From: a virus
Virus record (IMG/VR): IMGVR_UViG_3300005531_000016
Coordinates: 1-41,809 of that record
Strand: one strand, 5' to 3'
Length of the DNA stretch: 41,809 nucleotides
Part shown: positions 1 to 29,945 of the stretch, in pieces
How positions within the stretch are numbered: the stretch's first letter is position 1
Layout of the letters: the number at the start of each line of letters is the position of its first letter
The notes under the pieces: generated by a model
Told to the model about the DNA's origin: nothing
Database searches by the model: none
The model's input: the letters and a program-made list of their open reading frames with translations, nothing else
Program-made: the position numbers and the translations under genes

Positions 1-216
1 TGGCTTGGCATAGCCAATGCCGCCGTGATTTCCCATCCTATCGATGAACCATTGGATTCCGAGCTCTCTGCGGGAGAGCATCAGTGGAGCTTCAGCGAGC
101 ATGACCTTGAAGAATGGTTTGAATTGGGCGGCATGAAGCTGAAAGAACAACTGATATTCCCAATGGGGAGCTACAGGATAGGCCTAGCTTATGGAGTCCG
201 TGAGGTAAGTACATGA
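1..216 (+). CDS. C-terminal part of an unknown protein (cut by left edge)
   Basis: The reading frame is open from the first base to a TGA that overlaps the next ATG (ATGA), so the true start lies outside the window. A GTG at 25 could act as a start but has no good ribosome binding site. The visible 71 residues are acidic in the first half and contain no motif I recognise. Tight coupling to the exported protein downstream suggests the same transcript. Function unknown. Confidence 0.5.
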   Translation, partial: WLGIANAAVISHPIDEPLDSELSAGEHQWSFSEHDLEEWFELGGMKLKEQLIFPMGSYRIGLAYGVREVST

Positions 217-713
217 CAAACAGAAAAAAGGCGATTGCTTTGGCGTTCGCGGTTCCGCTCCTGGCAATCCTGATCATTGCCCTGTGCGGCATGGCCGAAA
301 ACACAGTCGCGCAAAATCAGCCAGCCTCTATCACCGATCCATGCTTTTCGCAATTCACCGCGAAATCCAGCGTGCCCATAAACGCCACTACGGCGACAAC
401 GACACAGCTTGTTGCCCCGGCAGCGGGAAAGGCCGTATTCGTGTGCGGAGCTTCACTGACAATTGCTCCGTCGTCCACTTCAGCGGATACGGCACAATTT
501 ATCAGCGGAACCGGACCGACTTGCGGCACCAACACGGTTACGAATACAGGCACATTCGGCAATGGCGATCTAACAACGGCAGCGCCGCCGCTGTTCATCT
601 CATTTGCCGATCCCGGATCAACCTTTAGCTCGGCGGTTGGCGCGGGGGTCTGCCTGGTAAGCGCGGGGACTACGGTAAACATTCAAGGCGTACTTACTTA
701 CGTCCAGCAGTAA
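213..713 (+). CDS. Small exported protein, virion or surface associated (hypothetical)
   Basis: This 166-residue protein starts with a basic stretch, then a strongly hydrophobic segment (about residues 8-27) and a polar region ending near TVAQ, which fits a Sec signal peptide or a single membrane anchor. The mature part is rich in Thr, Ala, Gly and Ser, predicted beta, with four spaced cysteines that could form disulfides after export. A GAGG ribosome binding site precedes the ATG, which overlaps the upstream stop. It sits with a similar exported gene just before the capsid block. I do not recognise a named family. A capsid- or cell-surface beta-sandwich is my inference from composition and place. 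Confidence 0.7.
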   Translation: MTNRKKAIALAFAVPLLAILIIALCGMAENTVAQNQPASITDPCFSQFTAKSSVPINATTATTTQLVAPAAGKAVFVCGASLTIAPSSTSADTAQFISGTGPTCGTNTVTNTGTFGNGDLTTAAPPLFISFADPGSTFSSAVGAGVCLVSAGTTVNIQGVLTYVQQ

Positions 714-2709: not shown

Positions 2710-3924
2710 ATGGCCATTAACACCGTGCCAAGGTCAGTAGACCAGGCAATTCAAGAAACAGTACAACAGCGAGTATTTTTCGGGGAAAGAGATATTCTCT
2801 TCAACCCGAATCTCACTCCGATTCTGACCTTAGTGACAAAGATCGGTAATCGGAAAAAAACAACGGCATCAACCCGCGTGGAATGGATCGAAGACGACTA
2901 CGTGGGGTACTGGGGCCAGGCAAACAACACGACCGACTACAGCTCGGTTGCCACGTCCATCACGGTTGTCGATGGAACCCTGTTTGCTTATGGCGACCTG
3001 GTTGCCATTCCCAAGGCTCCTGCCAGCTCGGCGGCGGAAGAAATTGCCCGCGTAACCGCCGTCGCTGGCAATACAGTAACCCTGACTCGCGGCATTGGCG
3101 GCGCTGGAGCGGACACTATCGGGGCATCTTCCGATATCCGCATTCTTGCATCGGCATATGCCGAAGGCGATTCTTTTGGAACGGTGCGCTCAACGAGTAA
3201 GTCAGTGAAAATCAGTTATACACAGATTTTCCGGCGTCCTGTTCAGCTCACCAAATCAATGGTCGCCCAAGCGCAATTCGGACCGTCGAATGAGCGAATT
3301 TTTCAGCGCCAGAAGGGGCTGGAGGAAATTCGCCGCCAAATGGAGCAAGCAGCTCTGTTTTCCAGGCCTTCGGAGTCATTGGCTCTTGGCGCTCCCGGAA
3401 CGGTTCGCACGACGATGGGAATCAAATCCCGAATCGTGACCAACGTTTACAACGCGAACACAACGCTGACCGAAGGCGGACTGGAAAGCTTCGCGGAAAT
3501 GGCCTTCTCCACCTACTTCCAGGGAAACGAGAAGCTCCTGGTTGCATCCAAGAGAGTAATCTCCGCATTCGACTACTTTGCCCTCGGCCATCAGCGCACC
3601 GAACAATCCGAGGAAATTTACGGAGTGAAAGTGCGCAGGTATGTGACTTCACACGGAGAGTTCCTCATCTCACGAGACCTGTTGCTTGACAACGGTCCGG
3701 TGAGCGGTAACGGTCCTGGACATGAAGCCTATGCAATTGACGTGGATTCATTAGAATTCGCTCCACTTGTCGGCAACGGTGAGAACCGCGACACGCATTT
3801 GCTGACCGATGTAATCAAGGACGGCAGCGACAAATACTCGGATGAATACCTGTGCGAGGGCGCATGGGTAATTCGCTTCGAGCAGCGCCACGCCCGTCTG
3901 TACAATGTCAACGGTTACAACTGA
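2710..3924 (+). CDS. Major capsid protein, SU10/DUF5309-like
   Basis: The 404-residue product follows the scaffold-like gene and is followed by a strong hairpin, as major head genes often are. The pattern matches what I recall of the DUF5309 / SU10 major head protein family (HK97 fold): an N-terminal segment before a TRVEWIEDD strand, an inserted beta domain (about 80-145), a helix with RRPVQLTKSMV, a long helix RQKGLEEIRRQMEQAAL (the spine-helix candidate, about 200-217), and a C-terminal half with repeated beta strands ending in RFEQRHARLYNV. The length fits the family. It should be the most abundant virion protein. The family name is from recall of motif order, not a search. Confidence 0.82.
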   Translation: MAINTVPRSVDQAIQETVQQRVFFGERDILFNPNLTPILTLVTKIGNRKKTTASTRVEWIEDDYVGYWGQANNTTDYSSVATSITVVDGTLFAYGDLVAIPKAPASSAAEEIARVTAVAGNTVTLTRGIGGAGADTIGASSDIRILASAYAEGDSFGTVRSTSKSVKISYTQIFRRPVQLTKSMVAQAQFGPSNERIFQRQKGLEEIRRQMEQAALFSRPSESLALGAPGTVRTTMGIKSRIVTNVYNANTTLTEGGLESFAEMAFSTYFQGNEKLLVASKRVISAFDYFALGHQRTEQSEEIYGVKVRRYVTSHGEFLISRDLLLDNGPVSGNGPGHEAYAIDVDSLEFAPLVGNGENRDTHLLTDVIKDGSDKYSDEYLCEGAWVIRFEQRHARLYNVNGYN

Positions 3925-10048: not shown

Positions 10049-11428
10049 ATGTGCCACACGCAACAAACACAAGATATGCCACTGGAAACACCGACGATCA
10101 CGCCGCCGGATTCCGGTCCCGGCGCAGAATTGTCACGCACACTGAATGCCGAGAAAGAGGCTAACCCGCAGATGGTGTCAGTCAAGACGCCAACAAAATT
10201 CGGGATGCTGATGAACTTGATGGCGCCAATGCTAGAAGGGGCAGCCGTTGGCGGCTTCACTGGAAAGGGGCATCCCGGAGGAGGCTTTGGCGCAGCCCAG
10301 GATTATTTCGTCCAGCAGCGGATGCGCCAGATGCAAGCGCAGCAATTTCTTGCCAATATGCAAAAAACGCAAGCTGACGTGGAAAAAGCGAGGGCTGAAG
10401 CAGAATGGAACTTGCGCCGCCCTGGCCTCACGAGAACGGCCCCGGCAATACATGGCATTGGGCCCTCCGGCGAGCCTGTTTTCATGGCGCAAAATCCGAA
10501 CACGAATCAATGGGAAGTCATCAATGGCATTTCTCCAGAAGGGCCGCTGCCAGACTATCAAACCATCGGAACCAACGCAGGAATCGTAAAGTATGACAAG
10601 CGCGGGATAGCGCCAACCCTGCCGCTCACCATGCAAACGCAGCAATCTGCCGCTGTCGGCAATCAACTGCCAGAGAATATAGCGCCACTCGCCAATTCTG
10701 AGCTCTGGGGAGGCCCCAGCAGGAGCGATCTGCAAGGTCCATTGCCTACAAAATTCAATTCTGGACGGCCCAGGATGAGCGCAAGCATTCCGTCTGCGCC
10801 GCCAACGGCAATCCCACAGATACTGCAACCGCCGCCGAAACAGGAGCGCGAAGAAACCCCAGAACAGCAAGATTTTGATTATCTAACCACGCCAAAGGAA
10901 AAAGGCGGCATGGGCCTTACCCCGGATCAGGCACATGCCAGAATGCGAGCCCAGGACCGCAGGCCAGATGAAAGCGATCAGCCGCTGACGGGCCAGCGGT
11001 ACAATGTAGCAAGGCAAAAAATACAAAGCGCCTTGAATCGCCAGTTCGCGGAATCCGAATCACGCAGAAAGGCGGACTTGGCAGCGCTCGAAAAGAAGCA
11101 TAGTACGGGAGAAATTACCGACGACGAGTATGCCTCCCAGAGACAACAGATTGAGGAGGACAATGCCGACCGCAAGCAGGCCGCACACGAACAAGCTGCG
11201 GCGGAAGCCCAAGGAATGGGCATTAACCTTGGCGTTGTCCCGAACTATCGTGAACAACTACGCGGCGGAGGAGGACGGGGTGCCACATCTGGACAGGAGG
11301 CAAGCGGGAAGACGGTAACAATGGACGTTGTGGATGCCTGGGCCAGACACAGTGGAATTTCGCGCGATCAGGCTTTAGCGCAATTCAAGAAGAGAGGCTA
11401 TATCGTTGGCAACGGCAGTGTCCGATGA
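10049..11428 (+). CDS. Ejection-type internal virion protein (second Met-Cys start)
   Basis: I take the ATG at 10049 because AAAGGAA lies 6 bases before it and the product then starts MCHTQ, like its neighbour. The 459 residues contain a hydrophobic/Gly segment (MNLMAPMLEGAAVGGFTG, about 45-62), a Gln-rich helix, a Pro/Asn-rich middle (about 140-300), a charged coiled coil (about 335-395), and a C-terminal helix pair with a VDAWARHSGISRDQALAQF stretch. It lies between the small and giant ejection-type genes, matching the place of T7 gp15. No enzymatic motif is visible. Confidence 0.6.
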   Translation: MCHTQQTQDMPLETPTITPPDSGPGAELSRTLNAEKEANPQMVSVKTPTKFGMLMNLMAPMLEGAAVGGFTGKGHPGGGFGAAQDYFVQQRMRQMQAQQFLANMQKTQADVEKARAEAEWNLRRPGLTRTAPAIHGIGPSGEPVFMAQNPNTNQWEVINGISPEGPLPDYQTIGTNAGIVKYDKRGIAPTLPLTMQTQQSAAVGNQLPENIAPLANSELWGGPSRSDLQGPLPTKFNSGRPRMSASIPSAPPTAIPQILQPPPKQEREETPEQQDFDYLTTPKEKGGMGLTPDQAHARMRAQDRRPDESDQPLTGQRYNVARQKIQSALNRQFAESESRRKADLAALEKKHSTGEITDDEYASQRQQIEEDNADRKQAAHEQAAAEAQGMGINLGVVPNYREQLRGGGGRGATSGQEASGKTVTMDVVDAWARHSGISRDQALAQFKKRGYIVGNGSVR

Positions 11429-14400
11429 TCTGGACCAATTTGTGGCGAACTATCGCGCCAAGGGTGTGCCCAAAAGTTCTGGCGATGATGAGTTAGATCA
11501 ATTCGTCAAGAGCTATTCGGAGGAGAAATCGGCGCCCCCAGACACCCGTTCGCCATTTGGAACACTTGCGGAACGTTCCGCGCGTCTTGGCGAGCCTATG
11601 ATTCCGCTGGCTCCCCCAAAGAATTTATTCGTTGATACGACAAAAATTCCAAGGAATCCATTTACGAACGAGCTTGAGCTTGCCCCCCCCATAGCGACCG
11701 AGGAAGAGAAGCAGCGTGCCGGAACTATTGGACCAAGGCCAAATACCGAAATCCCCATGCCATTCGGTGCCGCGCCCGCGCAGGTTCCAGATATTACCGG
11801 AGCGCTGCCGCGTGCCATTGCCGCAGGGGCATATCCCGGATCCTTTGCAGAGGAGCTAAAGCGCAGAGCTGGAGTAACGGACGCCGAGCTACAGCGCGAG
11901 CAAGCTGGCGGCCTGCGCCTTTTCGATCCCGCAGAGTTGATGACGGAATCTCAGCAGCATGAACACCCAATCGCCACCGGAGCGCTCCAGGCCATTGGCG
12001 GACTGACGACACCGGAAAACATCGGCATCACTGCCGCAACGGCTGGTATTGGCGAAGCACCGGCTGCTGTCAGGGCCGGATTGAGCACTCTCTTTGCAAT
12101 GCAGATGGCCAAGGGTGCCTATGACGCCATTCCCGGGATCCGCGACGCTTGGAACCGTGGCGACTATGCGGAAGTCAAGCGCCTTGCGACGCTGGCCGGA
12201 GTGAATACGGCACTGGCCGGGGCCGCTGCTGGGCACGGCGTAAATGAATTTCGAGAAGCGGCTTATGGAGAGCCCGCGCCATTAACACTGCCCCCAGGAA
12301 CGGTCAGTGCGCCGCTTAAGGTAGACGAAGCACTTGGCCGTGGCGCACGCCGAATGCAAGAATTCGAGGCCAACAATGCTGCCCGCGAAGGCATGGCGAA
12401 TCTCGCCAATGCCGAGAGCGCGATTGAGAGAGCAAGACAGGAGCGCATAAATGCGCCAGTAGCCATGCCTCGCACGTTTAACCCAGATGAATATCCTCGC
12501 TTGTTGCCCGGGCCCATCCAGGGTCCAGAGACAAATCCCCTTGAACGAGAAGCGACTCAGGTTTTGGAACAGCGAAAGCCCACCGGGCCGCAGGTTGTGG
12601 ATCGCCGCCGCGTAGGCGCTGGAGAGAATCTTGCGCCGGAATCACCCGCAACACTGCGCAAACAAGTCGATATGCTGGCCGAAGGCACGAATAAGGTTGT
12701 GTACTTTCCAAAGGGAACGGAGAATCTCCCCGCGCCGCCGGACAACGCCGTGGTGACAAACGTGCCCGGTGATAAGCCGGGAAGCGGAATTTACTACCAC
12801 GACCCAAGCATCAAGTCCGAGGACATTTATTCAGCGGTCGATAATGGAACCTATGGGAAGCTGCTTGGCAATGTACAAACAAAGCAGGAAGCGGAAAAAG
12901 GAAATCCCGGAGTGCTTGTCTCGCGGGATGCAAACGGAACGGAACAGAAGGCCAGTGTAGTTGATCTTCGCCGAAAGGCAATCGTACGTTTGCAGGAAAA
13001 AGAGCTGAACCGCCAGTTTCCAAATGGGCAAGTCAGCGTGGAGACGCCCGAGAAGGTGATTTCCGAACGCCAGAAAGAACCGGCGCAACCCTTGCCGGCG
13101 AAATTCAGGACGGACAAGGCCGCAAATATAGCTGCGGCGCAGCCGACAAAAGAGCAAATGATCGATGCCTTCCGTACGGATAAGGGGCGCCTTGAAACAG
13201 AACGCCGCTCTGCCTCGCCGGAAGAGCAGTCTCTTATCGATGATCGCCTGGCAACCATCAACCAGCATCTCGAGGAACTAACCGGACAAAAGCCGTTACA
13301 GAAATTCGTAGATCGCCCTGGCACTGACATTGACAAATTTGTCGAGCAATATGGTAAGCCATCGAGTTCGGAGCAGGCCGAAAAAGCGGCTGTTTCTCCA
13401 GGCGACTATGTAGAAGCCAGCAATGGCGCATTGGCTGGCAAAACGCTGGAAGTTACCAAAGCGGGGAAAAGCGGCATTTACGTCCGCGAGGGTGATGGCC
13501 CCATTAAGTTCGTAAAAAACGGTGAGTATCGGAGACTAGAAGCAGCAAAGGAAGTCAAGGATTTGATCGGTGCCGGGAAGAGGTATTCTGGAGCCGATCC
13601 GCGAATCCTAAAGAATCTCATTCCTGAGCCACTGCGGGAGAAATTGGCGGAAGAAAATCGCTACGTTGCCTTGTCCAGGAATGTCCAAGGGGGCATGTAT
13701 GATCTGGAATCTCAAGCGGCGGCGGACATGCTCCGTGCGCGGGAGATACTGAAGAATGCCCCAGGAAGCCCCAAAGACCTTGAAACGATTTATCACAGCC
13801 TCGAAGATTCCAGTATAAAACTCACCCCCGAACAGGCCAAGATTCGTGAACAGTATGTTAAACCCCTGATGGATGCGTCGCGCGAAGCCTATGAGAAAAT
13901 CACCGGCAATAAGGTCGCCGAGGGCGATGAGCACGTTCACCGCATTGCAGCAGAGCGCGGCGGCATACTGGACAGGATACTCGGCGGAAAGGGCAAACTG
14001 AACGCGGGGAACCCATTATCCAAATCGGCCCCTGGGGCGAAGCGCCGCACAATGATGGCGCTCGAAGATGAGAACGGAAATCGCCGGGTGGTATCGATCA
14101 AGGACAACCATGTCACGGCATGGGAACAGGGCCGCCCTGCGGACATGGGAAGATTTCGCACGCCAGCGCAGAAGGGCGTGGACGAATACTACGACGAAAA
14201 AGTTATGTCGGGACTCGAAAAGCTGGCGTCCGATCTCGGAATCTCTCATGAGCGCACGGCCAAAAAATTGGGCGGAGAGGAAAAAATCCCCGGCACGTTT
14301 GTTGATAAGTCAGGAAAGCGATGGAATGTTAAGCAGGCGACAACGAAAGAGATAGAGGCCAACACCAATATCCGGTACTACAAAAACGCGCTAGCTTCGG

Positions 14401-16172
14401 CGGTTCTAGATTTCCTGCAAATGCGGCGTGCCGAGCGTGCATACGATTACCTGGAGGGTTTCAAGAATTCACCGGAATTCGGCGAGATCGCGCACAAGAT
14501 AGGAAGCGGAAATGCCCCGGAGGGCTGGCGTCCAACCATGCTTCCACAGTTCCATGGCTACTTGTTCGAGCCGCATACGGCGGAAGTGCTTGACTGGTTT
14601 GCAAAAAGGATGAATGGCGGTGATGCCGGGGTAATCGACCGGGCGATGCAGGGGATCAATCACTTTTTACGGACGGCGGCATTTTTCAATCCGCTCATTC
14701 ACACACCAAACATCGGGGTGCATTGGGCCGTCGAGAAAGGCGTGACCGGATTTGGGCCGAAGAACTGGGGAACCATCCTCCGCACGGGATCACGCGCCAT
14801 TGATGCTGTCATCCATCAGAATCAGGATTTTCTAGATGCGCTCGATTCCGGCGCCCCGCTGCAATCGCAGAGGCTGGATAACGACGTTGTAAATAAGCTC
14901 ATTATTCAGCGCATGGGAAAAGAATTGGAATCGAATCCTGGTTATGCCGCAAAGATTGCCGGGGCTTTGGGCTACGCAAATCCGCTAAAGCTGGTTCGGG
15001 CCATCTATGACTTTTCCAACAAGGCCACGTGGATGACGAACGACATAGCCCTGCTCCAGGCAACGTATGAGCACATGGAACGAACTGGGCAACCATTCAA
15101 AGAAGCAGTTGCGGACGTTGCCAAGCACATACCGGATTATAGGCTGCCCACCCGCATTTTTGACAGCAAAGCGCTTGGCACGCTGATGAGCAATCCCAAT
15201 CTAACCATGTTCGGAGCGTACCACTACGGTGCATTGCGCAGTTACGGAGAAATGATAAAGGAAATGGCCGCAGAAAATGTTCCGCCAGCGCAACGGCTGA
15301 AATCGCTGGATCGTATGGCCATGCTCGGACTTGTCACATTCGCAGCCTATCCGGCAATGGATCAGCTTGCAAAACTTGTAACAGGAGACAAGACAGCGCA
15401 GCTCCGCCGCGCCGGAGCCAGCACCTTCATCTACAATCTCGCACAATTGCTCAAGGGAGATAAAACACCAACGGAGGCACTTCAAGCGGTGGCAACTCCG
15501 GCGGCTGGCACCAAATCCGCGGTGGAACTGGCATTTAACAAGGATTTGCGCACCGGGCGCGATATCTATGATTCATCGGCCCCAGCGCGGACGATTGCCA
15601 AGCAAGTGGGTCGCTACGCGCTAAAGAGTGTAAACCCGGTGGGCATGGGCATGGATTTGGAATCCGGCAAAAAAACACTGAAGCAATTGGGAGCTGGCCT
15701 CTTTGGCGTCAAAACGAACGTGCAAACTCCGGCAGAAGCGCTCGCTTCACGATTGCTGGCAAAGTCCATGGGAACCGCCGCGCCAGACGAGGATACTCTG
15801 GAACGCGCCACGATGCGGCGGACCTATGAACAAAGGCTGCGCGACAAGGAGATTACTCCGGCTGACGTTGCGAAAGATCGTGCCTCGGGAAAACTAAATG
15901 CGCACGATCAGGAGATTATCTTGCGCAATGCCGCGCGGACACCCTTGCAGAATGCCATGCGCAATCTTGGCCCCGAAGAAGCATTAAAGGTTTGGAACAA
16001 GGCGACGCCAGAAGAGCAGCAGCAAATCCGCACGCTGTTTGCCGGAAAACTAAGCTCCATGGGAAAAGTGCCGCCAGAGCGCCGCGAGCAGGTGCGCCAG
16101 CAGATTCTATTGGCCCTCCATCCGCACACTCCAGCGGCCGGCGGCCTGCCTCGCGTGTTTTCAGGAATCTGA
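11406..16172 (+). CDS. Giant ejection-type internal virion protein, 1588 residues
   Basis: The frame is open from a TTG at 11406 that overlaps the previous gene and is preceded by GAGAGG; a GTG at 11418 is an alternative. The protein has three copies of a short D(D/E)LDxFVxxY motif (about residues 7-16, 28-37 and 639-648), then helical domains (about 730-1100), a hydrophobic region with HFLRTAAFFNPLIHTPNIGV (about 1085-1105) and a charged C-terminal helical part. Size, place after two ejection-type genes, and mostly helical content match T7 gp16-like proteins that form the DNA-ejection channel. Unlike T7 gp16 I see no lytic transglycosylase E..S/GLMQ motif. A possible LPD-type mixture of domains remains open. 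Confidence 0.7.
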   Translation: MATAVSDDLDQFVANYRAKGVPKSSGDDELDQFVKSYSEEKSAPPDTRSPFGTLAERSARLGEPMIPLAPPKNLFVDTTKIPRNPFTNELELAPPIATEEEKQRAGTIGPRPNTEIPMPFGAAPAQVPDITGALPRAIAAGAYPGSFAEELKRRAGVTDAELQREQAGGLRLFDPAELMTESQQHEHPIATGALQAIGGLTTPENIGITAATAGIGEAPAAVRAGLSTLFAMQMAKGAYDAIPGIRDAWNRGDYAEVKRLATLAGVNTALAGAAAGHGVNEFREAAYGEPAPLTLPPGTVSAPLKVDEALGRGARRMQEFEANNAAREGMANLANAESAIERARQERINAPVAMPRTFNPDEYPRLLPGPIQGPETNPLEREATQVLEQRKPTGPQVVDRRRVGAGENLAPESPATLRKQVDMLAEGTNKVVYFPKGTENLPAPPDNAVVTNVPGDKPGSGIYYHDPSIKSEDIYSAVDNGTYGKLLGNVQTKQEAEKGNPGVLVSRDANGTEQKASVVDLRRKAIVRLQEKELNRQFPNGQVSVETPEKVISERQKEPAQPLPAKFRTDKAANIAAAQPTKEQMIDAFRTDKGRLETERRSASPEEQSLIDDRLATINQHLEELTGQKPLQKFVDRPGTDIDKFVEQYGKPSSSEQAEKAAVSPGDYVEASNGALAGKTLEVTKAGKSGIYVREGDGPIKFVKNGEYRRLEAAKEVKDLIGAGKRYSGADPRILKNLIPEPLREKLAEENRYVALSRNVQGGMYDLESQAAADMLRAREILKNAPGSPKDLETIYHSLEDSSIKLTPEQAKIREQYVKPLMDASREAYEKITGNKVAEGDEHVHRIAAERGGILDRILGGKGKLNAGNPLSKSAPGAKRRTMMALEDENGNRRVVSIKDNHVTAWEQGRPADMGRFRTPAQKGVDEYYDEKVMSGLEKLASDLGISHERTAKKLGGEEKIPGTFVDKSGKRWNVKQATTKEIEANTNIRYYKNALASAVLDFLQMRRAERAYDYLEGFKNSPEFGEIAHKIGSGNAPEGWRPTMLPQFHGYLFEPHTAEVLDWFAKRMNGGDAGVIDRAMQGINHFLRTAAFFNPLIHTPNIGVHWAVEKGVTGFGPKNWGTILRTGSRAIDAVIHQNQDFLDALDSGAPLQSQRLDNDVVNKLIIQRMGKELESNPGYAAKIAGALGYANPLKLVRAIYDFSNKATWMTNDIALLQATYEHMERTGQPFKEAVADVAKHIPDYRLPTRIFDSKALGTLMSNPNLTMFGAYHYGALRSYGEMIKEMAAENVPPAQRLKSLDRMAMLGLVTFAAYPAMDQLAKLVTGDKTAQLRRAGASTFIYNLAQLLKGDKTPTEALQAVATPAAGTKSAVELAFNKDLRTGRDIYDSSAPARTIAKQVGRYALKSVNPVGMGMDLESGKKTLKQLGAGLFGVKTNVQTPAEALASRLLAKSMGTAAPDEDTLERATMRRTYEQRLRDKEITPADVAKDRASGKLNAHDQEIILRNAARTPLQNAMRNLGPEEALKVWNKATPEEQQQIRTLFAGKLSSMGKVPPERREQVRQQILLALHPHTPAAGGLPRVFSGI

Positions 16173-16414: not shown

Positions 16415-18043
16415 ATGAAGCGGCTTCTGCTGATTTTCATGGTATGCCTCATGGTCCCGCTTGGGCTGCGGGCGCAAGTCTCCGTAACCGGGAACCTAAA
16501 GGACGTTGGTGTCGCAAACGTTACAGGATCGAACACGTTCGTGCGATTTACGCTGACAAATTACGGGTCCAACATACCGAAGGTTGTAGGCTCCAATCTG
16601 ATTGCTGTGCCCGTAAAGGATTTCCATCCCGACATAAATGGGAACATCAGCGGAACAATCCAGCCAAATTCTTCGATTTCGCCAATCGGCACGCTATATC
16701 AAGTTTGCATTTTCTACCAGGGACAACAGTTCCGCTGCGCGACGTATTTGATCAGCGGCCCGTTTGACCTGGGTACGGCGGTGCCAATCAGTTCAACGCC
16801 AATCGTCGGACCAAACCAGCTTGTGACACAAATTTTTCTCTGCCCTCAGTTCTCTGCCTCAACGACATGGACATGCGTCCACAATTTTGGAGACTTCAAT
16901 GTCGGATGGCAGCTCTACGACCAAAACAACAACGGAATCGGATTTCCCAACACCGTTTCCGAGCCGGATGCAAACACCATTGTTTTTACATGGATTACTC
17001 CGCAGGCCGGAAGGGCGGAGATATTGCACGCTGGCGCTGTGAATATAGCGACAAATCAGCCGAACGCGGTGGTGCAAAATCCGCTGGGCAGCCAAACGGT
17101 TTGCTGCTTTCCGCTCGCTGTCACGAGCGCGTTCAATGCCACCGGAGGAGGGTCCTTTTCCGGCACATTTTCCGGGAATCCTACCTTCTCTGGCAATCCG
17201 GTATTTTCAGGAAACCCCGTATTTTCCGGCGGCGTAAAGGCTGGATTTTTTTCTACGGCAGCGGCCAATCCGGCACAAACCGGACTGTTGCGCCTGGCAG
17301 CCGCCGATTCGATTGCATTCCGCAACAACGCAAATTCCTCCGACCTCGCGCTTGGCATAGACGGCTCGAACAATCTAAGACTTGACGGTTTTCCAGCGGA
17401 TGTGGTGGCACGCCTTGTTTCGAGATCGGCAAACCCATCGCAAACAGGAAGCATCTCCCTTGCGGTCGCCGATTCAATCTCTTGGCGAAACAATGCCAAT
17501 AGCGCGGACTTGGCTCTTGGATTGAACGGCAGTGACCGTCTCGTATTCTCACTTGATCCGGTTGTCACGGATGCCTCTACTGACACGCTTACGAACAAAA
17601 CGCTAAATTCCCCGGTTGTAAGCACTCCGGTCATAAATGGTGCCAGCACTGGAACCGGGATTCAGGGAAATGCTCCTAGGCTCCTAACAGACGACGCCAC
17701 CGGATCGGCTGGGAATCCGTTATGCCGGGCCTCGGGCGGCGGATCAACCGCATGTTCGGTTACAAGTATTCCCTATCGTCGCGTCGTTTCCAGCAACAGT
17801 TGCGCGAATACTGGATCGGCTGGCGGCGCAACGCAAACCTGCACCATCACAATCTCGCCAGCCGAAGCGGATACCAGCTATCACGCAATCTGCGGCGGCG
17901 AGGGCACCGTAACCGGATATCCACTCATGCTCGGTGTAAGCAGCAAGGGAACAACCACGATTACAGTCACATATTCCGATGGAACAAACAACATGGCAAC
18001 AGCTTCGGGATGGTCCACGATTTCATGCGAAATTCTACGATGA
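16415..18043 (+). CDS. Exported fibre-like protein with internal repeats
   Basis: The 542-residue protein begins with a classic Sec signal peptide (MKRLLL, hydrophobic core, GLRAQ). The N-terminal 220 residues are beta-rich with paired cysteines. About residues 246-270 hold four copies of an FSGNP-type pentapeptide. Two related repeats of about 40 residues follow (about 283-325 and 338-379), each with NP.QTG, AADSI/VADSI, RNNANS.DLALG and a final strand, a module typical of phage tail fibres. The C-terminal domain (about 455-542) has six cysteines and ends SCEILR. Fibre repeats joined to an export signal is odd. The stop overlaps the next start (ATGA). Confidence 0.75.
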   Translation: MKRLLLIFMVCLMVPLGLRAQVSVTGNLKDVGVANVTGSNTFVRFTLTNYGSNIPKVVGSNLIAVPVKDFHPDINGNISGTIQPNSSISPIGTLYQVCIFYQGQQFRCATYLISGPFDLGTAVPISSTPIVGPNQLVTQIFLCPQFSASTTWTCVHNFGDFNVGWQLYDQNNNGIGFPNTVSEPDANTIVFTWITPQAGRAEILHAGAVNIATNQPNAVVQNPLGSQTVCCFPLAVTSAFNATGGGSFSGTFSGNPTFSGNPVFSGNPVFSGGVKAGFFSTAAANPAQTGLLRLAAADSIAFRNNANSSDLALGIDGSNNLRLDGFPADVVARLVSRSANPSQTGSISLAVADSISWRNNANSADLALGLNGSDRLVFSLDPVVTDASTDTLTNKTLNSPVVSTPVINGASTGTGIQGNAPRLLTDDATGSAGNPLCRASGGGSTACSVTSIPYRRVVSSNSCANTGSAGGATQTCTITISPAEADTSYHAICGGEGTVTGYPLMLGVSSKGTTTITVTYSDGTNNMATASGWSTISCEILR

Positions 18044-21762: not shown

Positions 21763-21763
21763 C

Positions 21764-23665
21764 ATGAGAAAACTACTTATACTTTCATTGTTTCTTTTTT
21801 TCACCACAAGCCTCGCGGCGCAGAACAACCCGCTGGCGTCCCGGCCCTACGGCCAAGAGACCGTTGCTTTCAGCGCGACTCCGGCATTCAACTATGCGAC
21901 GAGTTACGGAAAGAAAATCGTTCTAACTGGCAATGTAACCAGTTCCACGGCCACGGGCATGGAACCTGGCATGTATCCCACCTTGGAGGTATGCCAAGAC
22001 GCGACCGGGGGCCGCACATTCGTTCCGCCAACTGGTTTCAACGGCTGGGTAGCGATTCCATCATCCGCGAATGCTTGCATTGTCGAGTTCCTTTACTACG
22101 ACGGCGTACAAGCCACTGTAGTAACAACGGCGACTGGAGGCGGAGGCGGCTCCGGCACAATCAATTCCGGCACAAGCGGAAAAATCGCTATCTACTCCGG
22201 TTCCACCACCGTCTCAAGCGATGCCAAGCTCGATGACGGCCTCACTACGGCAAATACCTTGACATATACCGATACCGGAGGAATGGCGGCAAAATCCTTC
22301 AATGCCACGGGCACAGGCGCCGCCGTAGTCAATGGCACAAATGGGGCATGCGGCGCTGGCGTTGCCGGACATTCCCTGTTATGCCTTGGAGACTCGCTCG
22401 CGCTGACAGCGAAGATCAGCCTGAATGGCGGCGCGTTTCTTTCCATACCGCAATGGTCGAATGATTCCCCGACGCCATTTGGGCCGCTTTGCGCCGATGG
22501 AACATTTCCACGCCTCATAACTGTTCCCATTGGATCCGCCGGGCAGCCCCTTCTTTCCACCGGATCCAGTTCATGTTTCGGATACGGCGCTCTTGACCTT
22601 TCAAGTTCCTCGAATGTTACCAATCGCCTTCCCAAGGCAAACATGGCCCTGACAACCGTGCATACGGATCAGACCAACACATTTACAGCAGCGGGAACCA
22701 TCGACCTAAGCGCAGCAACTTCATCGGCAGCGTTTCGTATACCGAATATCGCCGGAGCTTCCACAACTACGAATGGAACGCTGGCCTACAACACCACAAC
22801 GAACAATTTTGTCGGCGGCATGAATTCAGGAAATGCCATCATTCCCGTAACGACGATTACTCCGACAAACAACGACTGCGTAAAATGGGTGGTGACCAGC
22901 GGGAATTTCCAGCTTGGTGATGTCGGATGCGGAGGAACGGTTTCGCTCTCCAGTCTCACGGCAGCGACAACGGCAAATACCATTGCCAATGGAAACAACG
23001 GCCAAACATGGCAATGGTCCCTTACATCTGCTGGAGGCGTGGGATTCAAAGTCACTGAATCCTCGGCAAGCACCGCCACGGGAACACCCTATCTGTTTCA
23101 GGTGTCCGCGCTATCGGGATCGACGGCAAATCCAGCCAGATTTGATTTCAACGGAAACGGCGTAGTAGTCAATACATCCGGGCTGCTGACTTCGATTGGC
23201 ACGGGGGCTATTGATGCAACAAAGCTTTCCGGCCAGATAAGCACGTCCAACCTGCCATCCTCCAGCAAAATGCGCACATGCGCGATTATCGTGGGTTCCG
23301 ATGGCGGCTCGGCGCTCGCGAATACGGACATTGCTCCTCTCGGAAGGCAATGTTTTGTTCCTTACGCGGCAACCGTAGTCGAAATCGAAGTGGCGGCGGA
23401 TGGCGGAACGCCGAATGTAATCGTGGCGAAAAATCACGCTGGAACACTGACCGATTTGCTCAGCAGCGCACTGGCGACAGCCGCGTCTGGCGGAATCGCG
23501 TGCTCGAACAGCGGCGGCACGGCTGGGCTTGACGGAACGACGACGTGCTCGGCGACGCTGCAAAATACATCGCTGGCCGCCGGTGATTACATCGAAACGC
23601 ACTCTGCTACCGCTGGCGGAACCGCGAAACGCATGTCCATCTTCATCACGTTCACGGTGAACTGA
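21764..23665 (+). CDS. Exported fibre-like protein
   Basis: The 633-residue product starts with a strong signal peptide (MRKLLILSLFLFFTTSLAAQ). An N-terminal beta domain with two cysteines is followed by a GGGGGSG linker, a fibre-like shaft made of short Ala/Thr/Gly-rich repeats (about 135-380), a further repeat region with a TAATTANTIANGNNG stretch, and a C-terminal cysteine-containing beta domain starting near MRTCAIIVG and ending FITFTVN. The layout (signal, head domain, Gly linker, shaft, C-terminal knob) parallels the preceding gene. The gene starts one base after the preceding stop codon. Receptor binding is the likely role. Confidence 0.72.
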   Translation: MRKLLILSLFLFFTTSLAAQNNPLASRPYGQETVAFSATPAFNYATSYGKKIVLTGNVTSSTATGMEPGMYPTLEVCQDATGGRTFVPPTGFNGWVAIPSSANACIVEFLYYDGVQATVVTTATGGGGGSGTINSGTSGKIAIYSGSTTVSSDAKLDDGLTTANTLTYTDTGGMAAKSFNATGTGAAVVNGTNGACGAGVAGHSLLCLGDSLALTAKISLNGGAFLSIPQWSNDSPTPFGPLCADGTFPRLITVPIGSAGQPLLSTGSSSCFGYGALDLSSSSNVTNRLPKANMALTTVHTDQTNTFTAAGTIDLSAATSSAAFRIPNIAGASTTTNGTLAYNTTTNNFVGGMNSGNAIIPVTTITPTNNDCVKWVVTSGNFQLGDVGCGGTVSLSSLTAATTANTIANGNNGQTWQWSLTSAGGVGFKVTESSASTATGTPYLFQVSALSGSTANPARFDFNGNGVVVNTSGLLTSIGTGAIDATKLSGQISTSNLPSSSKMRTCAIIVGSDGGSALANTDIAPLGRQCFVPYAATVVEIEVAADGGTPNVIVAKNHAGTLTDLLSSALATAASGGIACSNSGGTAGLDGTTTCSATLQNTSLAAGDYIETHSATAGGTAKRMSIFITFTVN

Positions 23666-25123
23666 ATGATGCGAGTCGCAATTCTGTTTTTCGCGTGCGC
23701 CATTTTTCTAGGGATTGCTGGCGGCCCCGCTTCGTCGCAAACATTGCCGGGTGCGCCAACCGCGCTGTGCAACAACAGCACGACATCATCTTCGAGCACT
23801 CTTAGCTGCACGATGAATCACGCATCCGTGACGAACGAGAAAATAATCGTTTCCTGCGGCGCATTCGGCTATTCCACCGCTCCAACGATAACTGTAACGG
23901 ACAACGCTTCGGGAGGCTCGAACACCTACACGCAAGACGCGCAAGCGACGAATACAGGCGGCCCTGAGAGGGTGGCGACTTTCAGCGCGGACGTCGTGCG
24001 CGGAGGGGGAAGCACGCTCACCGTTACCTGTCATTACTCGCCAGCCTCGATTGACGTGGACATGCTCAGTGCGGAATTTGCGAATCTCGCCACGGGGGCG
24101 AAGGATTCGAGCACAACAGCAATTCCAACTGGACTTGCTCCGAATACGCTGAACCAGATTGCCACCAACACTTCGACGGCAAGGAACACACTGGCATATT
24201 CCGCCTGTGACCCGCACAAAGGGCTTTCTCCGCAAGCGGGTCCCGGCTGGACCGCATTGCAACAAACTTCCGTTGACGAGGTGACTGACCAATATCGCGT
24301 CTATCTCGAAAGCGGCTCTCAGGTTGTCGCGTTTCTCGAAGGTAACAACACGACAAATGACGACTTGGCTTGCACTTTTGCGGCCTATGCGCTTGCCGAC
24401 CAAACTGCCGTTGCTGGCGTGGCTGTTGGCAACAGTTCGGCGAGTCTTCAATTCGGCGCCGGCAGCGGTTCTACTACCTGGAGTTGGACGGATACGGTCT
24501 CCTCAAGCGGCTCCAACACTCTCGCCATCGTGGATTTGTTCATAAACGGCACGACGCCGCCATCGGCAGCACCGACGTATGGCGGAACGTCCATGACTCT
24601 CATCACTAACATTACGGACCAGACGAATCTCGAATCGCATTACGTCTACAAACTCGTGAATCCGCCAGCGGGCGCGAACACGGTAAGCGTCAGTTTTGGC
24701 AGCGCAAAAACAGGGGCCGGAATATCCACGAATTTCTTCAACGTGAATCAGTCCTCGCCGACTTCGGCGGCGCAGACGGATAACGGCAGCACGCTGAACC
24801 CGGCGAATCTGACAGTTTCCTCGGCGGCGAATCATCTGGTTTACACGAGCGTAGGCATTGCGAATAAATCCGCTTGCCCCGCATCTGGAGTTGTCGTGGA
24901 CACGAACAATCTCAATGTCGGCCAGATTCCAACTGCGGTGATTGGGCATGTAGCGGGAGCTTCCAGCGTGACCGCTGGGTGGAATCTGCTGACTACCAAC
25001 GGGATTCCGTCCTGCCCCGGAACAAACGGAACTGGAATCGAGCGCACTCACATTGCATTTGATATCGCTTCCGCCAGCGGAGTCATCCCAAGTCCCGTGC
25101 GCCACCGCGCGATTGTGTACTGA
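23666..25123 (+). CDS. Exported beta-sandwich protein, fibre block
   Basis: The 485-residue protein starts directly after the previous stop, with a double Met and a signal peptide ending near ASSQ. The mature part is almost all beta: two related halves, each with a T.T.SD/DNA.GS.N pattern and a late SVSFGSAKTG or VTCHYSPAS strand, as in tandem immunoglobulin- or jelly-roll-like domains of secreted proteins. Cysteines are few and paired. No shaft repeats are visible, so this looks more like an adhesin or virion-accessory protein than a classic fibre. The final tail is basic (PVRHRAIVY). Confidence 0.7.
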   Translation: MMRVAILFFACAIFLGIAGGPASSQTLPGAPTALCNNSTTSSSSTLSCTMNHASVTNEKIIVSCGAFGYSTAPTITVTDNASGGSNTYTQDAQATNTGGPERVATFSADVVRGGGSTLTVTCHYSPASIDVDMLSAEFANLATGAKDSSTTAIPTGLAPNTLNQIATNTSTARNTLAYSACDPHKGLSPQAGPGWTALQQTSVDEVTDQYRVYLESGSQVVAFLEGNNTTNDDLACTFAAYALADQTAVAGVAVGNSSASLQFGAGSGSTTWSWTDTVSSSGSNTLAIVDLFINGTTPPSAAPTYGGTSMTLITNITDQTNLESHYVYKLVNPPAGANTVSVSFGSAKTGAGISTNFFNVNQSSPTSAAQTDNGSTLNPANLTVSSAANHLVYTSVGIANKSACPASGVVVDTNNLNVGQIPTAVIGHVAGASSVTAGWNLLTTNGIPSCPGTNGTGIERTHIAFDIASASGVIPSPVRHRAIVY

Positions 25124-25137
25124 TGCATGGAGGTCTG

Positions 25138-28100
25138 ATGCGAAAAGCCCTGGCATTGCTGCTCTTCATATTAGTTTCTGCTTTGCCGCTGAACGCGCAA
25201 GCGCAAGTGACAGGAACCGGCACAATTTCCGGCGTTGGCCAAATTACCGTAGTGCCCCTTCCAACGGCGACCGCATCTCCTACAAGCCTAGGATTCGGAA
25301 ACGTGACACAGGGACAATCCAGTGCCTCACAGGCTGTAACGCTGCAAAATACGGGAACGACGCAGCTTACCATTGTAAGCGCGGTCACCACGTTGCCATA
25401 TAGCGCAACAACCACTTGCGGAGCAACACTGGCGGCGGGAAACTCCTGCGTCTACAATGTCGTTTTTTCTCCCACCGGTACCGGCTCTTTCCCCGGCACA
25501 CTTACAATCAATGACAACTCGACCACCACTCCGCACGTTATCTCGCTTGCCGGAAGCGGCGTGCCACCCGCCCAGCCAGGAGCTTCCCTCACTCCCGCTT
25601 CATTCAATTTTGGAAATCAAACAACCGGAACAACAAGCGCCTCGCAGCCGTTTACATTGCAAAATACGGGTGGCGCGGCCCTGTCCATTTCCAGCATTAC
25701 CGCATCAGCTTCGTTCAGCCAGACGAATAATTGCCCGGCAAGTCTGGGAGCCGGTGCAAGCTGCCTGATCAATGTGACATTCTCGCCATCGACCACTGGC
25801 CTGATTCAAGGGTCTTTGAGCGTTGTTGACAACGCGGCGGGAAGTCCGCAAAGCGCGAGCTTGAGCGGAACGGGAATCCCTCCATCATCCGGCGGCGGGG
25901 TGCCAGCAACGGCGGGATGGTTCTCGATCCCGAATACAGCATGGGCATCACTCTGTCCCAATGCTACAGGTGCGCGGCCTGATGTACAGGGAAATTCCGG
26001 CTGTGGCGCGGTAGTTGACGCCTGGGCAGGCGGCTACCTTGACACGAAGAGGCATCGTCTGTGCTTCACTGGCGGCGGCCACCACGATTACTACGGCAAT
26101 GAAATTTACTGCCTGAATCTGGACACGCTGACAATCGCTACTCAGAACGTGGCTTCAAATGCCTCAACGCTGAATACGAATACCAACTCCTACGACACCA
26201 TGCCGGATGGAACGCCGGGTGCCCGCCACACCTACGGCGGATTGGCCTACTATCCAGACATTGATTCCGCCATTTTCATGGGTGGCGGTCCGCCCAACCC
26301 TGGCGGCACAGTGTCCACCACATGGGCAATTGATCAGTCAAAGCTGAATCCCGCAACGACGATGGGTGTTCAGCCGAGCGGGGCCGCAAAAAACATGAAT
26401 CCTACGGTGAGCGGCGGCACGCTTGACGGACAATTCGGCAATTGTTCGGTATATGACCCCAACACGCAGAAAATGCTGCTCTGGGAGCCCTGGCAATCAC
26501 AGCCCGGCAATCTGTGGAACTACGACCAGTCCACGAATACATATACGCATCTTGCGACATTCGGAAGCGGCTCTGTTTTCATGGATGGCAACCAGAGTTG
26601 CGCTCTCGACCCCGTGCATGAGGTGCTCTATGCCATAGGTAACGGAAAGCTGCTGCACGTCAGCGTGGCGAGCGGCTCCAGCTTCACCGTAACGGATTCA
26701 TTTTCGCGCAGCGGATGCAATACAGCGCAGACCAGCTCCGGGTATCCCGGAGTTTCTTTTGACCAGCGCGATGGCGGCATCGTTGTTTGGAATGGCGGCA
26801 ATAGCATAACGGTGTATAGTCCGGCGTCGGACACTTGCTCCACTGAAACATATTCTGGCGGACCAACCACGAAGGGTAGCGCGGGAACTTTCGGACGCTG
26901 GCAATATGACAATGTTCTCGGCGTGCATGTGGTATGCAACGAGAACAGCGAGAACTGTTTCACGCTTCGCCGCAACGTGGACGTGGCCGCGGTGAATGGC
27001 TTCTCCAATAGGGTGGCGGGCATCAACACGCCCGGAGGATCAGCCTCTATTGTTAGCTGGCAAAACTTTGATAGCTATCCTGTAACGAACAAGCAGCAGT
27101 ATTTCCAGACCAACATCGCTTCGCAATTGACAACCGACTGGACGCAGCCGAATACGGATGGAGGAGCTCTCCATTTCGCTTTCAAAAACGGCGATTTTCA
27201 AGCGGGTCCGGGATGGTTCAACTACAACTTCTGCGCCGCGCTGAATTGCCTCTACGGACAAGGCTCCGAGTTTTACGTGCAATACAAGGAGCGTATAAGC
27301 GCCGCCGCCCTCTCCCGCTCAAGCTGGGATAGCGGATTCACCGACTGGAAGATGGCGATTCTGCGGGAGGGCGACAGCAACACGCAGCAGGCCACGAATT
27401 GTTCCAGTACGCCGACTGATATCGTGCTCGATTCCGATGCCGGACACATCGCCAGCGCGGTTATGCCGTGGGTGTACGTGAACTGCGGCAACGCTGGGAC
27501 GCTCAATTTCCTCAACTCGCCATTTCAGCCAATCCAGTACCCGCTAGCGAGCGGTGCTACAGACTTGCTTGACCAGCCTGCCTCTGGCGGTCCGCACTAT
27601 GGCAGTGGCGTGAACGGCTCAACAGTTCCGGTTACAGACCCGACTGCCTGGAATTTCACGGCCAATGAATGGTTCACAATTCAGGCCCATGTCAAGATTG
27701 GCACGTGGAATACGGCCTCATCCGTAATCGAAATGTGGGCGTGCCACCAAGCCCAGCCTTGCCGGCTGGTGACCAACGCGAGTGATGCCGCGCTGAATGA
27801 CCTTGGAGGAAGCGTAACCGACAAGTTCGGCGCAATCGTGCTCTTGCCATACGCGACGGGCGCGACGTGGCTCACGAACGTGGATTACTGGTACGACGAT
27901 CTAATCGTATCCAACCGGCGCATCCCTGATCCTGATGTTTCTACGCCGAATGCTCCTGACTCACTCTCGCTATCGGCCATCTCCAGTTCGAGCATAACGG
28001 TCAACTGGAGAGTCAACTCGAACAATGGCACAGCCCAAGACGATACGGGGTTTTTGGTGGAGCGATGCACGGGAACCGTGGCCGTGTGCATGCCCAATCC

Positions 28101-28287
28101 GCAGTCTGGCTTCACGCAGATTGGCACGACCGCCGCACACGCTTCCAGTTTTGTTGACAACACAGTGAGCGCGGGGCACACCTACACGTATCGCGTTCGC
28201 GCGAAAAACGCGAATGGAAATTCCGCATACACCGTCGCCATCTGCTTCAATGGCGGAACGACGTGCGGAGGAACGGCACAAATCTAA
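25138..28287 (+). CDS. Exported multidomain protein: two ASH domains, propeller, LamG-like, FN3
   Basis: I choose the ATG at 25138, just after GGAGG, giving 1049 residues and a signal peptide MRKALALLLF...NAQAQ. Two ASH / choice-of-anchor-D-type domains follow (about 45-145 and 148-247), each with SLGFGNV or SFNFGNQ, LQNTG, a cysteine pair, and F(S)P..TG. Next is a Kelch-like beta-propeller (about 254-611) with repeated GG..Y and WxYD segments, then a LamG/concanavalin-like sandwich (about 637-929) with a YWYDDLIVS end strand, and a C-terminal FN3 domain (about 936-1041). Such a mosaic is typical of secreted acidobacterial proteins and is unusual in a phage. It probably binds polysaccharide; whether it is virion-borne is unknown. 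Confidence 0.78.
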   Translation: MRKALALLLFILVSALPLNAQAQVTGTGTISGVGQITVVPLPTATASPTSLGFGNVTQGQSSASQAVTLQNTGTTQLTIVSAVTTLPYSATTTCGATLAAGNSCVYNVVFSPTGTGSFPGTLTINDNSTTTPHVISLAGSGVPPAQPGASLTPASFNFGNQTTGTTSASQPFTLQNTGGAALSISSITASASFSQTNNCPASLGAGASCLINVTFSPSTTGLIQGSLSVVDNAAGSPQSASLSGTGIPPSSGGGVPATAGWFSIPNTAWASLCPNATGARPDVQGNSGCGAVVDAWAGGYLDTKRHRLCFTGGGHHDYYGNEIYCLNLDTLTIATQNVASNASTLNTNTNSYDTMPDGTPGARHTYGGLAYYPDIDSAIFMGGGPPNPGGTVSTTWAIDQSKLNPATTMGVQPSGAAKNMNPTVSGGTLDGQFGNCSVYDPNTQKMLLWEPWQSQPGNLWNYDQSTNTYTHLATFGSGSVFMDGNQSCALDPVHEVLYAIGNGKLLHVSVASGSSFTVTDSFSRSGCNTAQTSSGYPGVSFDQRDGGIVVWNGGNSITVYSPASDTCSTETYSGGPTTKGSAGTFGRWQYDNVLGVHVVCNENSENCFTLRRNVDVAAVNGFSNRVAGINTPGGSASIVSWQNFDSYPVTNKQQYFQTNIASQLTTDWTQPNTDGGALHFAFKNGDFQAGPGWFNYNFCAALNCLYGQGSEFYVQYKERISAAALSRSSWDSGFTDWKMAILREGDSNTQQATNCSSTPTDIVLDSDAGHIASAVMPWVYVNCGNAGTLNFLNSPFQPIQYPLASGATDLLDQPASGGPHYGSGVNGSTVPVTDPTAWNFTANEWFTIQAHVKIGTWNTASSVIEMWACHQAQPCRLVTNASDAALNDLGGSVTDKFGAIVLLPYATGATWLTNVDYWYDDLIVSNRRIPDPDVSTPNAPDSLSLSAISSSSITVNWRVNSNNGTAQDDTGFLVERCTGTVAVCMPNPQSGFTQIGTTAAHASSFVDNTVSAGHTYTYRVRAKNANGNSAYTVAICFNGGTTCGGTAQI

Positions 28288-28301
28288 GAGGAGGAACACG
28301 C

Positions 28302-28919
28302 ATGAGGAAACACATTCTTTCCCTGCTTTTTTGCCTGGCGGGAACTGCGGCTTTCGCACAAAGTCCGCAGAACTCCAACTCGATGTCATTCACCGTGGTA
28401 GCCTTGCCGCCCGGACCAACCATTACTTCGCTCGGCGGCCTCTCTCCCACTGGAAAGATTTACGCTGGCTCTGTCATGCAAATCATCGGCAGCAATTTCA
28501 CGAGCTCATGTGCCGCCCAGGTTGATGGCACAACGCAGCCAGCAAGCTCTTTCACATACAAGTCCAGCACGGAGATTGACTACACCATTCCCGCGAGTCT
28601 TTCCGCGGCAGCCCACACGATGGTGATTTCCTGCCCGCTTCCGGCACTGACCATGAATACGCCGGTGACACTCCCAAACGCCATAGCGGGGCAGAGCTAC
28701 TCTGCCGACCTGGCATCCCTTGCGAAATTGACCGGAGGAATCCCGCCATACAAGTTCAGCCTTACGGGTGGCTCTCTTCCAACGGGGCTCGCTTTATCGT
28801 CCAACGGCATTGTCACTGGTACGCCTTCTGGTGCTGGCTCTTTTAGCTTTGGATTCACCGTTACCGATTCCTCACAGTTATCTTCCCTGCGCCGTTTTCG
28901 CATTTTTCTTCCCGTTTGA
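28302..28919 (+). CDS. Exported two-domain Ig-like protein (IPT-like and He_PIG)
   Basis: The ATG at 28302 follows an excellent AGAGGAGGAAC site and yields 205 residues with a signal peptide ending AAFAQ. The first domain (about 38-120) resembles IPT/TIG: SLGGLSPTGKIYAGSVMQIIG, an S.TEIDYTIPASL strand pair and two cysteines. The second (about 125-198) is a good He_PIG putative-Ig match: A.AGQSYSADL, GGIPPYKFSLTGGSLPTGL and GIVTGTPSGAGSF. Both families are frequent in secreted proteins of soil bacteria. It closes the exported block, which suggests a small accessory adhesin. Confidence 0.75.
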   Translation: MRKHILSLLFCLAGTAAFAQSPQNSNSMSFTVVALPPGPTITSLGGLSPTGKIYAGSVMQIIGSNFTSSCAAQVDGTTQPASSFTYKSSTEIDYTIPASLSAAAHTMVISCPLPALTMNTPVTLPNAIAGQSYSADLASLAKLTGGIPPYKFSLTGGSLPTGLALSSNGIVTGTPSGAGSFSFGFTVTDSSQLSSLRRFRIFLPV

Positions 28920-29205: not shown

Positions 29206-29493
29206 ATGTTCAATTTCCCGCCTATAACGCTGGGAGCGCTTGTGCTCCTGGCGACGCAGTTCTTTCTCTGTCTCCGCTGGATGTATCGCAGCTACAGAAA
29301 TGCCGAGATCAACCGGCGCTTCGTCAAAGACGTTGCCACAAACCACCTGCCCCATCTGTACCAGGCGATGAAGCAGATCGCAAGAGCCAGTGGCATAGAG
29401 CTGGAAGACCCTCCTCCGGTTCAGTGGATCGATTTCGACAACGGCAATGGCCATCACAAGAAATTCTCTTCCCTATGGCACCGGATGACCTGA
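29206..29493 (+). CDS. One-TM membrane protein before the lytic enzyme (holin candidate)
   Basis: The 95-residue product has one hydrophobic segment at about residues 7-24, a basic stretch right after it (RWMYRSYRNAEINRR), then a soluble tail with NHLPHLYQAMKQIA and a PPPVQWIDF motif. This predicts N-out/C-in topology by the positive-inside rule. The gene overlaps the lytic transglycosylase by 19 bases, so a role in lysis (pinholin or regulator) is attractive but unproven; a single TM with a long cytoplasmic tail is not the standard holin form. Confidence 0.65.
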   Translation: MFNFPPITLGALVLLATQFFLCLRWMYRSYRNAEINRRFVKDVATNHLPHLYQAMKQIARASGIELEDPPPVQWIDFDNGNGHHKKFSSLWHRMT

Positions 29494-29945
29494 TCGCGCT
29501 TGCCAAGAGCCTTGCACCGCCGCTGGACCCGGCACTTGTGTGCGCGGTGATCGAGCAGGAGAGCGGATGGAATCAATGGCTCAATCGCTACGAACCGGAT
29601 TTCAGCGCCAACCCCCGTTACAAACCCACCATACTCATCCAATCACAAGACTTCGTGAAGCGAGCCACTTTTGAAATTTCCCTATCAACAGAAATCGTGA
29701 ACCGAGCCATGTCCTGGGGGCTGATGCAGGTTCTTGGACAGACTGCGCGAGAGAATGGATTTCTTCTGCCGATGGCCAGCCTTTGTGACGCCGAGTTTGG
29801 CATTCGCATCGGCTGCAAGATATTGCTGCGCAAAATCACCCTGAGCAACGGCGACAAAGTGGCCGGGCTACAAGCATGGAACGGAGGAGCAAACCCAAAT
29901 TACGCGGCAGAAGTAATGGCAAGAGAAGCGAGATACCAACAGTAA
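29475..29945 (+). CDS. Soluble lytic transglycosylase-type endolysin
   Basis: I choose the ATG at 29475, giving 156 residues and a complete SLT domain; the frame is open upstream but that part shadows the previous gene. The catalytic glutamate is Glu29 in the EQES motif, GLMQ lies at residues 82-85, and the closing motif LQAWNGGANPNYAAEVM is a variant of the SLT AYNAG..V..YV block. The enzyme would cleave the MurNAc-GlcNAc bond of peptidoglycan with formation of a 1,6-anhydro end. No signal peptide is visible, so release would need a holin. It is the only peptidoglycan-cleaving enzyme I find in the window. Confidence 0.85.
   Translation: MAPDDLIALAKSLAPPLDPALVCAVIEQESGWNQWLNRYEPDFSANPRYKPTILIQSQDFVKRATFEISLSTEIVNRAMSWGLMQVLGQTARENGFLLPMASLCDAEFGIRIGCKILLRKITLSNGDKVAGLQAWNGGANPNYAAEVMAREARYQQ

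Follow-up and report, generated by a model that had tools for sequence, protein, structure and literature searches.

Why does a phage carry a 1049-residue protein that begins with a signal peptide and is built of domains in the style of secreted host proteins? The protein, P0001, is encoded in a 41,809-base IMG/VR virus record, analysed here over its whole length (the window), in which a major capsid protein (MCP), an integrase, replication genes and an SLT lysozyme are all present. The first-pass annotation had described P0001 as a mosaic known from secreted bacterial proteins and not from phages, possibly captured from a host and perhaps serving to bind polysaccharide in soil or to mask the cell. 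Assembly contamination was considered as a source of the gene and rejected, as phage genes flank it on both sides and most of the window is covered by two near-identical contigs, L049 and L050.

The 1049-residue frame proposed for P0001 is open from 25138 to 28287 and a GGAGG precedes the ATG at 25138; an alternative in-frame ATG lies at 25123, but 25138 is preceded by the better ribosome site and the signal peptide begins directly there. This signal peptide (MRKALALLLFILVSALPLNAQAQ), noted at first pass, was also called by our rule-based predictor, with a score of 8.14 and predicted cleavage after residue 22. The two ASH/choice-of-anchor D domains were recovered by NCBIfam NF012200 (E = 1.3e-38; 131.8 bits, above the curated cut-off of 45), and the Pfam families ASH, HYDIN-like and Cep192_D4 each matched two stretches of the protein (E = 1.6e-14 to 4e-17). 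The beta-propeller was likewise borne out and is of the kelch type, its AlphaFold2 model (pLDDT 41–84 per ten-residue block) aligning with the kelch domain of LZTR1 at a VIA-align Z of 23.4 and an rmsd of 3.3 Å over 280 residues. The FN3 domain, at the C-terminus, is borderline, with Pfam PF00041 scoring 23.6 bits against a gathering threshold of 25 (E = 6e-5), whilst a LamG-like sandwich at ~620–940 was not confirmed: pLDDT there is below 50, none of the libraries searched names the region and phmmer against PDB sequences found no match up to E = 5. The model contains separate ASH and propeller domains and not one continuous fibre fold. P0001 resembles the secreted bacterial proteins of NF012200 in its signal peptide and in ASH repeats with a C-x9-C loop, but differs from them in lying in a phage gene run before lysis genes, in having a propeller head shared between phages and in having no C-terminal sorting signal that could be seen by eye.

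The claim that such a mosaic is unknown in phages fails, because ASH matches also occur in Erwinia and Pseudomonas phage proteins annotated as hydrolases; the ASH repeats of P0001 match PHROG 18474 (E = 1.6e-37), and Foldseek returned ASH-like and propeller proteins in further phages, including the tail fibre of Stenotrophomonas phage Pokken. Host capture survives in part, in that the secreted-type domains are host-style and the signal peptide holds, but not as a recent event, the propeller-to-FN3 region being an old block shared with a siphophage. The bacterial relatives of the propeller are 26–30% identical and look secreted; a search of bacterial genome contigs with the propeller returned two gammaproteobacterial loci, and at one bacterial locus, L005, the relative stands beside heparinase-like genes (by eye). 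The motif GGGHHDYYGNE is common to the bacterial relatives L005 and L006, the latter having propeller, FN3-like and sandwich-like parts in a different order (by eye).

The siphophage, L003, is unrelated to the window phage and has HK97-type head genes and a tape measure among its ORFs as read by eye. The block that it shares with the window starts at P0001 residue 251, in the Ser/Gly linker ahead of the propeller, runs to the FN3 region and ends inside the next gene, of which it takes in the first part; the propeller-to-FN3 proteins are 82% identical in the best segment. Upstream of the block the N-terminal domains of P0001 and of its L003 relative are unlike, but each protein starts with a signal peptide. 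Over 798 codons dN was 0.155 and dS 2.41 (dN/dS ~0.06), with synonymous divergence saturated, so that the block has long been kept by selection and recent host capture is unsupported. On these substitution rates the propeller-to-FN3 block is best described as an old swappable module under purifying selection. The He_PIG gene that follows P0001 was found again in L071–L074, and L072 matches L003 over its first 658 bases only before passing into other phage genes, so that three phage backbones are touched by at least part of the module. L049, whose sequence is nearly that of the window, stops at window position 25890, only two bases away from the block edge, which fits population variation upstream, at the ASH/propeller junction, though this is only suggestive. 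A fibre-like neighbour in L003 (L003:5543-7546) contains many ESLTTSDSV-type repeats, and the L003 relative of P0001 has one such copy where ASH domains would be. A lone captured host gene was rejected as an account of P0001, since its neighbours also have signal peptides and the module is old and shared.

P0001 belongs to a series of six consecutive genes (16415–28919) that all have a predicted signal peptide by our rule-based predictor (6/6; Table 1), those on its five neighbours having been overlooked at first pass. Cleavage sites mostly end in AQ, and canonical n-, h- and c-regions recur across differing sequences. The run lies between the gene for a 1588-residue virion-type protein, which is probably an internal virion or ejection protein, and the SLT lysozyme, the probable endolysin, a position in the late structural region, close to the lysis genes. 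Start and stop codons overlap or are no more than one base apart at the first three junctions; the fifth and sixth genes start 14 bases past the preceding stop, each behind a GGAGG. The gene caller misses the start of 23666–25123; eight starts in the window were set by hand, four of them by start–stop coupling or upstream sequence. By eye, several of the six products look like tail fibres or tailspikes; Pfam and PHROGs named none of the three run genes between 17722 and 25123. The AlphaFold2 model of P0007, from the first gene of the run, had a mean pLDDT of 37.9 and was partly confident only to residue ~130; with this model Foldseek gave two matches at E ≤ 0.001, both to proteins of unassigned function, and tblastn of P0007 found no match in 50,697 phage records. 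A scan of IMG/VR with P0003 yielded candidate stretches, none of them a relative. A tRNA-Met gene lies at 1313–1387, just 5' of the head genes.

Table 1. Features of the window and their coordinates (residue numbers for the parts of P0001)
Feature	Coordinates	Strand	Remarks
Signal-peptide gene, 166 aa	213..713	+	near left end of contig
Signal-peptide gene, 164 aa	737..1231	+	near left end of contig
Major capsid protein (MCP)	2710..3924	+	query for finding related phages
1588-aa protein	11406..16172	+	upstream of the signal-peptide run; no signal peptide, no cysteine
P0007-type fibre gene	16415..18043	+	signal peptide MKRLLLIFMVCLMVPLGLRAQ, small all-beta N-domain, fibre-like repeats
Tailspike-like gene, 1240 aa	18040..21762	+	signal peptide; ATGA overlap with previous gene
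Fibre-like gene, 633 aa	21764..23665	+	signal peptide; start one base past preceding stop
485-aa protein	23666..25123	+	signal peptide; start immediately past preceding stop
P0001, 1049 aa	25138..28287	+	24 Cys; fifth of six signal-peptide genes
P0001, signal peptide	residues 1-22		
P0001, choice-of-anchor D/ASH	residues ~47-140, ~150-244		
P0001, Ser/Gly linker	residues ~250-254		
P0001, kelch-type propeller	residues 256-613		
P0001, no named family	residues 620-940		
P0001, FN3-like C-terminus	residues 944-1037		
Block common to window and unrelated siphophage L003	25888..28688	+	71% DNA identity
205-aa protein	28302..28919	+	signal peptide; choice-of-anchor Z repeat NF058597, He_PIG; relatives L003, L071-L074
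SLT-type lysozyme	29475..29945	+	right behind run

In order to place the run amongst related phages we searched with the MCP, which drew six contigs (L009–L014); the three long ones, G007, G008 and G009 (MCP identity to the window 65%, 67% and 75%, respectively), were read gene by gene, L010 and L011 lying outside this set and L009/G004 being near-identical to the window where compared. A counterpart of 16415–18043 with a signal peptide is present in all three, the P0007 N-domain being 34–68% identical across these relatives. Six signal-peptide genes stand consecutively in G007. A single 1209-residue signal-peptide protein of G009 combines the fibre N-domain with a tailspike-like body, and over 441 aligned columns this body shares 28% identity with the product of 18040–21762, a separate gene in the window. 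By eye this is the sole recognisable tailspike-like gene of G009, and it bears a signal peptide; PHROGs and Pfam named no tailspike in this phage. A large virion-type protein occupies a similar place in the window (1588 residues), G008 (3150 residues, G008:C1:8994-18446) and G009 (3440 residues, G009:C1:27660-37982); only the G009 copy matches that of the window by search, over short parts at 47%, and cysteine is absent from all three.

Signal peptides on fibre-type genes were also found in unrelated phages, some of them cultured. Tunturi_1 is a podophage of Tunturiibacter (PMC11924767). Five of its six genes gp12–gp17 (gp12, gp13, gp14, gp16 and gp17) have signal peptides, the deposited gene starts being the same as those predicted here, and the same five genes have them in Tunturi_2. 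In the deposited annotation of Tunturi_1, which like the other Tunturi gene annotations is a prediction, gp14 is a tail spike protein and gp17 a virion structural protein. Both phages resemble the window in having large signal-peptide genes in a run, annotated as tail spike, tail fiber, pectin lyase or virion structural, but the window's proteins gave no tblastn match at E ≤ 1e-3 in the Tunturi stretches, and an IMG/VR scan with part of Tunturi_1 gp12 gave candidate stretches and no relative. By analogy with these phages the host of the window phage may belong to the Acidobacteriota. No signal peptides were found on the tail genes in 50-kb stretches of Tunturi_3 and Tunturi_4, which also infect Tunturiibacter, and the trait is therefore not required by the host.

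In Myxococcus phage Mx8 the tail-fibre-like p64 (L066:36781-37854) has a signal peptide followed by an N-domain; its Mx9 counterpart is annotated as a putative tail fiber, and both phages have an extension of signal-peptide length. Relatives of this N-domain start only 7 (Bradyrhizobium phage) and 2 (Stenotrophomonas phage) residues before the homology, and in this alignment Mx8 seems to have added the signal peptide to a fibre of the standard kind. Signal-peptide fibre-like genes are present, too, in L023 and L062, which by eye are siphophages. The N-domain of L023 gave no tblastn match in 50,697 phage records nor in plasmids, and its hhalign comparison with that of P0007 reached E = 0.00036 at a probability of only 37, over 40 columns.

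We counted signal peptides with our own rule set on genes of at least 400 residues. They were called on 21 of 64 such genes in nine test contigs or records and on 1 of 103 in the controls, a grouping made partly by outcome in that L023 (3/4) was moved from the controls after being read; the original control set including L023 had 3/63, and with L023 kept among the controls the figures become 18/60 and 4/107. Control loci below 9,000 bases were left out, and Mx8 p64, at fewer than 400 residues, falls outside the count. P22 (0/8) and T7 (0/7) had none. The single control positive, L004:405-1787, is an MCP-like ORF by eye with a signal-peptide-like stretch (MKKASLALLACAAGLPIFAMA), translation of which may in truth begin at an internal ATG at 464.

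In mature form all eight signal-peptide proteins of the window have an even cysteine count. Among proteins of the window, G002 and G007–G009 with at least two cysteines, even counts were found in 22 of 27 with a signal peptide and 48 of 88 others, a modest excess (Fisher P = 0.013) between related, non-independent sequences; cysteine content over the same phages was 1.70% against 1.02%, with almost no enrichment in G007 alone (1.44 against 1.40%). P0001 and its L003 relative share 14 cysteines, whilst six are found only in the window (309, 325, 436, 488, 699 and 704) and two, eight residues apart, only in L003 (473 and 481); we read these window-only and L003-only cysteines as possible pairs. 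The P0007 N-domain has two cysteines in three of four phages and lacks both in the fourth. In Tunturi_1, signal-peptide proteins of at least 400 residues have 10–32 cysteines (1.5–2.7%), and 8 of the 9 listed non-signal-peptide proteins above 250 residues outside the run have 0–1.1%, the ninth being a 283-residue exonuclease with 2.1%. Indirectly, these patterns suggest oxidation outside the cytoplasm and, in fitting disulfides, argue for real export; we judge transport of the run proteins across the inner membrane to be highly probable.

What the proteins might do once exported is a more tentative matter. The reading we prefer, with a probability of roughly 0.4, is that they are exported and oxidised adhesins or depolymerases that join the virions at lysis. 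P0001 would then belong to a tightly clustered set of phage fibre-type proteins, expressed late, that cross the inner membrane by Sec and lose their signal peptides, disulfides would form in the periplasm, and the mature proteins would recognise or process surface polysaccharide, forming a receptor-binding complement that is attached once lysis puts virions in contact with the periplasm. In P0001 the ASH domains may serve as the stalk and the propeller-to-FN3 region as the head, both of them exchangeable. Late expression, cleavage, export, attachment at lysis and the ligand are the parts of this scheme that we infer. As a rule the fibres of tailed phages are put together in the cytoplasm, and we know of no export-then-attach route for them; P22 tailspikes and T4 fibres can attach to finished particles in vitro. 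Attachment at lysis would explain why the sole recognisable spike of G009 is tagged, and also the deposited "tail spike" annotations. Against it, P0001 has no recognisable virion-anchor domain, and the run of signal-peptide genes in which the L003 counterpart also sits is placed among head-tail connector genes and not behind the tape measure, where a cargo cassette fits as well as fibres do.

That placement in L003 speaks equally for proteins that are exported and never reach virions, acting unattached, whether in the periplasm, at the cell surface or beyond the cell, where they may open exopolysaccharide, mask receptors against superinfection or keep progeny off debris. The export evidence is identical for free action and for attachment, and the bacterial propeller relatives of P0001 look like secreted proteins themselves. 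A precedent is WceF of Pantoea, a tailspike-fold enzyme that is exported across the membrane and acts on exopolysaccharide (PMC7949094), although WceF is a bacterial gene with a Tat signal and the present ones are phage genes with Sec-type signals. If the proteins only acted free, however, G009, whose one recognisable tailspike-like gene is tagged, would be left with no virion receptor-binding protein, and the Tunturi annotations name such genes tail spike, tail fiber or virion structural. We consider free action a serious possibility, if a somewhat doubtful one.

Two further accounts are less likely than either attachment or free action. The run could be lysogenic-conversion cargo, morons that alter the surface of the lysogen, as the integrase of the window phage would allow and as in lambda Lom, an exported outer-membrane protein (a single barrel, not fibre-like) also encoded between tail genes (PMC12309495). 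Late expression is suggested, however, by six packed genes right ahead of the lysis genes, and a like run occurs in Tunturi_1 and Tunturi_2, whereas recombinase and/or integrase genes are reported for Tunturi 3–5 only (PMC11924767), so that we hold this account to be unlikely. Least probable by our estimate is that the hydrophobic N-termini, which some virion proteins do have, are membrane or virion anchors or relics of domain capture with no working signal peptide, given that canonical regions and AQ-type cleavage sites recur despite differing sequences, that P0001 and its L003 relative keep a signal peptide ahead of unlike N-terminal domains, and that the cysteine pattern fits oxidation.

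The run proteins resemble known fibres and tailspikes such as P22 gp9 and T7 gp17 in a modular stalk and head, repeat-rich regions, a position near lysis genes and domain exchange, but differ from them in having a signal peptide and many cysteines. To our knowledge a run of tagged fibre-like phage genes has not been described, and searches of the open-licence literature, as far as titles and abstract openings go, gave nothing on signal peptides on the tail fibres of tailed phages. Exported endolysins are already known (PMC6116005). The cultured phages Tunturi_1 and Myxococcus Mx8 make the export idea testable at once. More generally, and with some hesitation, we suggest that some tailed phages of soil bacteria may have receptor-binding spikes that are exported by the host's Sec system, disulfide-bonded in the periplasm, fitted to virions from the cytoplasm only at lysis and equipped with host-derived secreted modules. 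If fibres are indeed exported, this would amount to a periplasmic branch of tailed-phage assembly, which is in no textbook known to us; it would account for the ability of phages to employ surface domains that are host-style and rich in disulfides, and would matter for superinfection and for the prediction of receptor binding.
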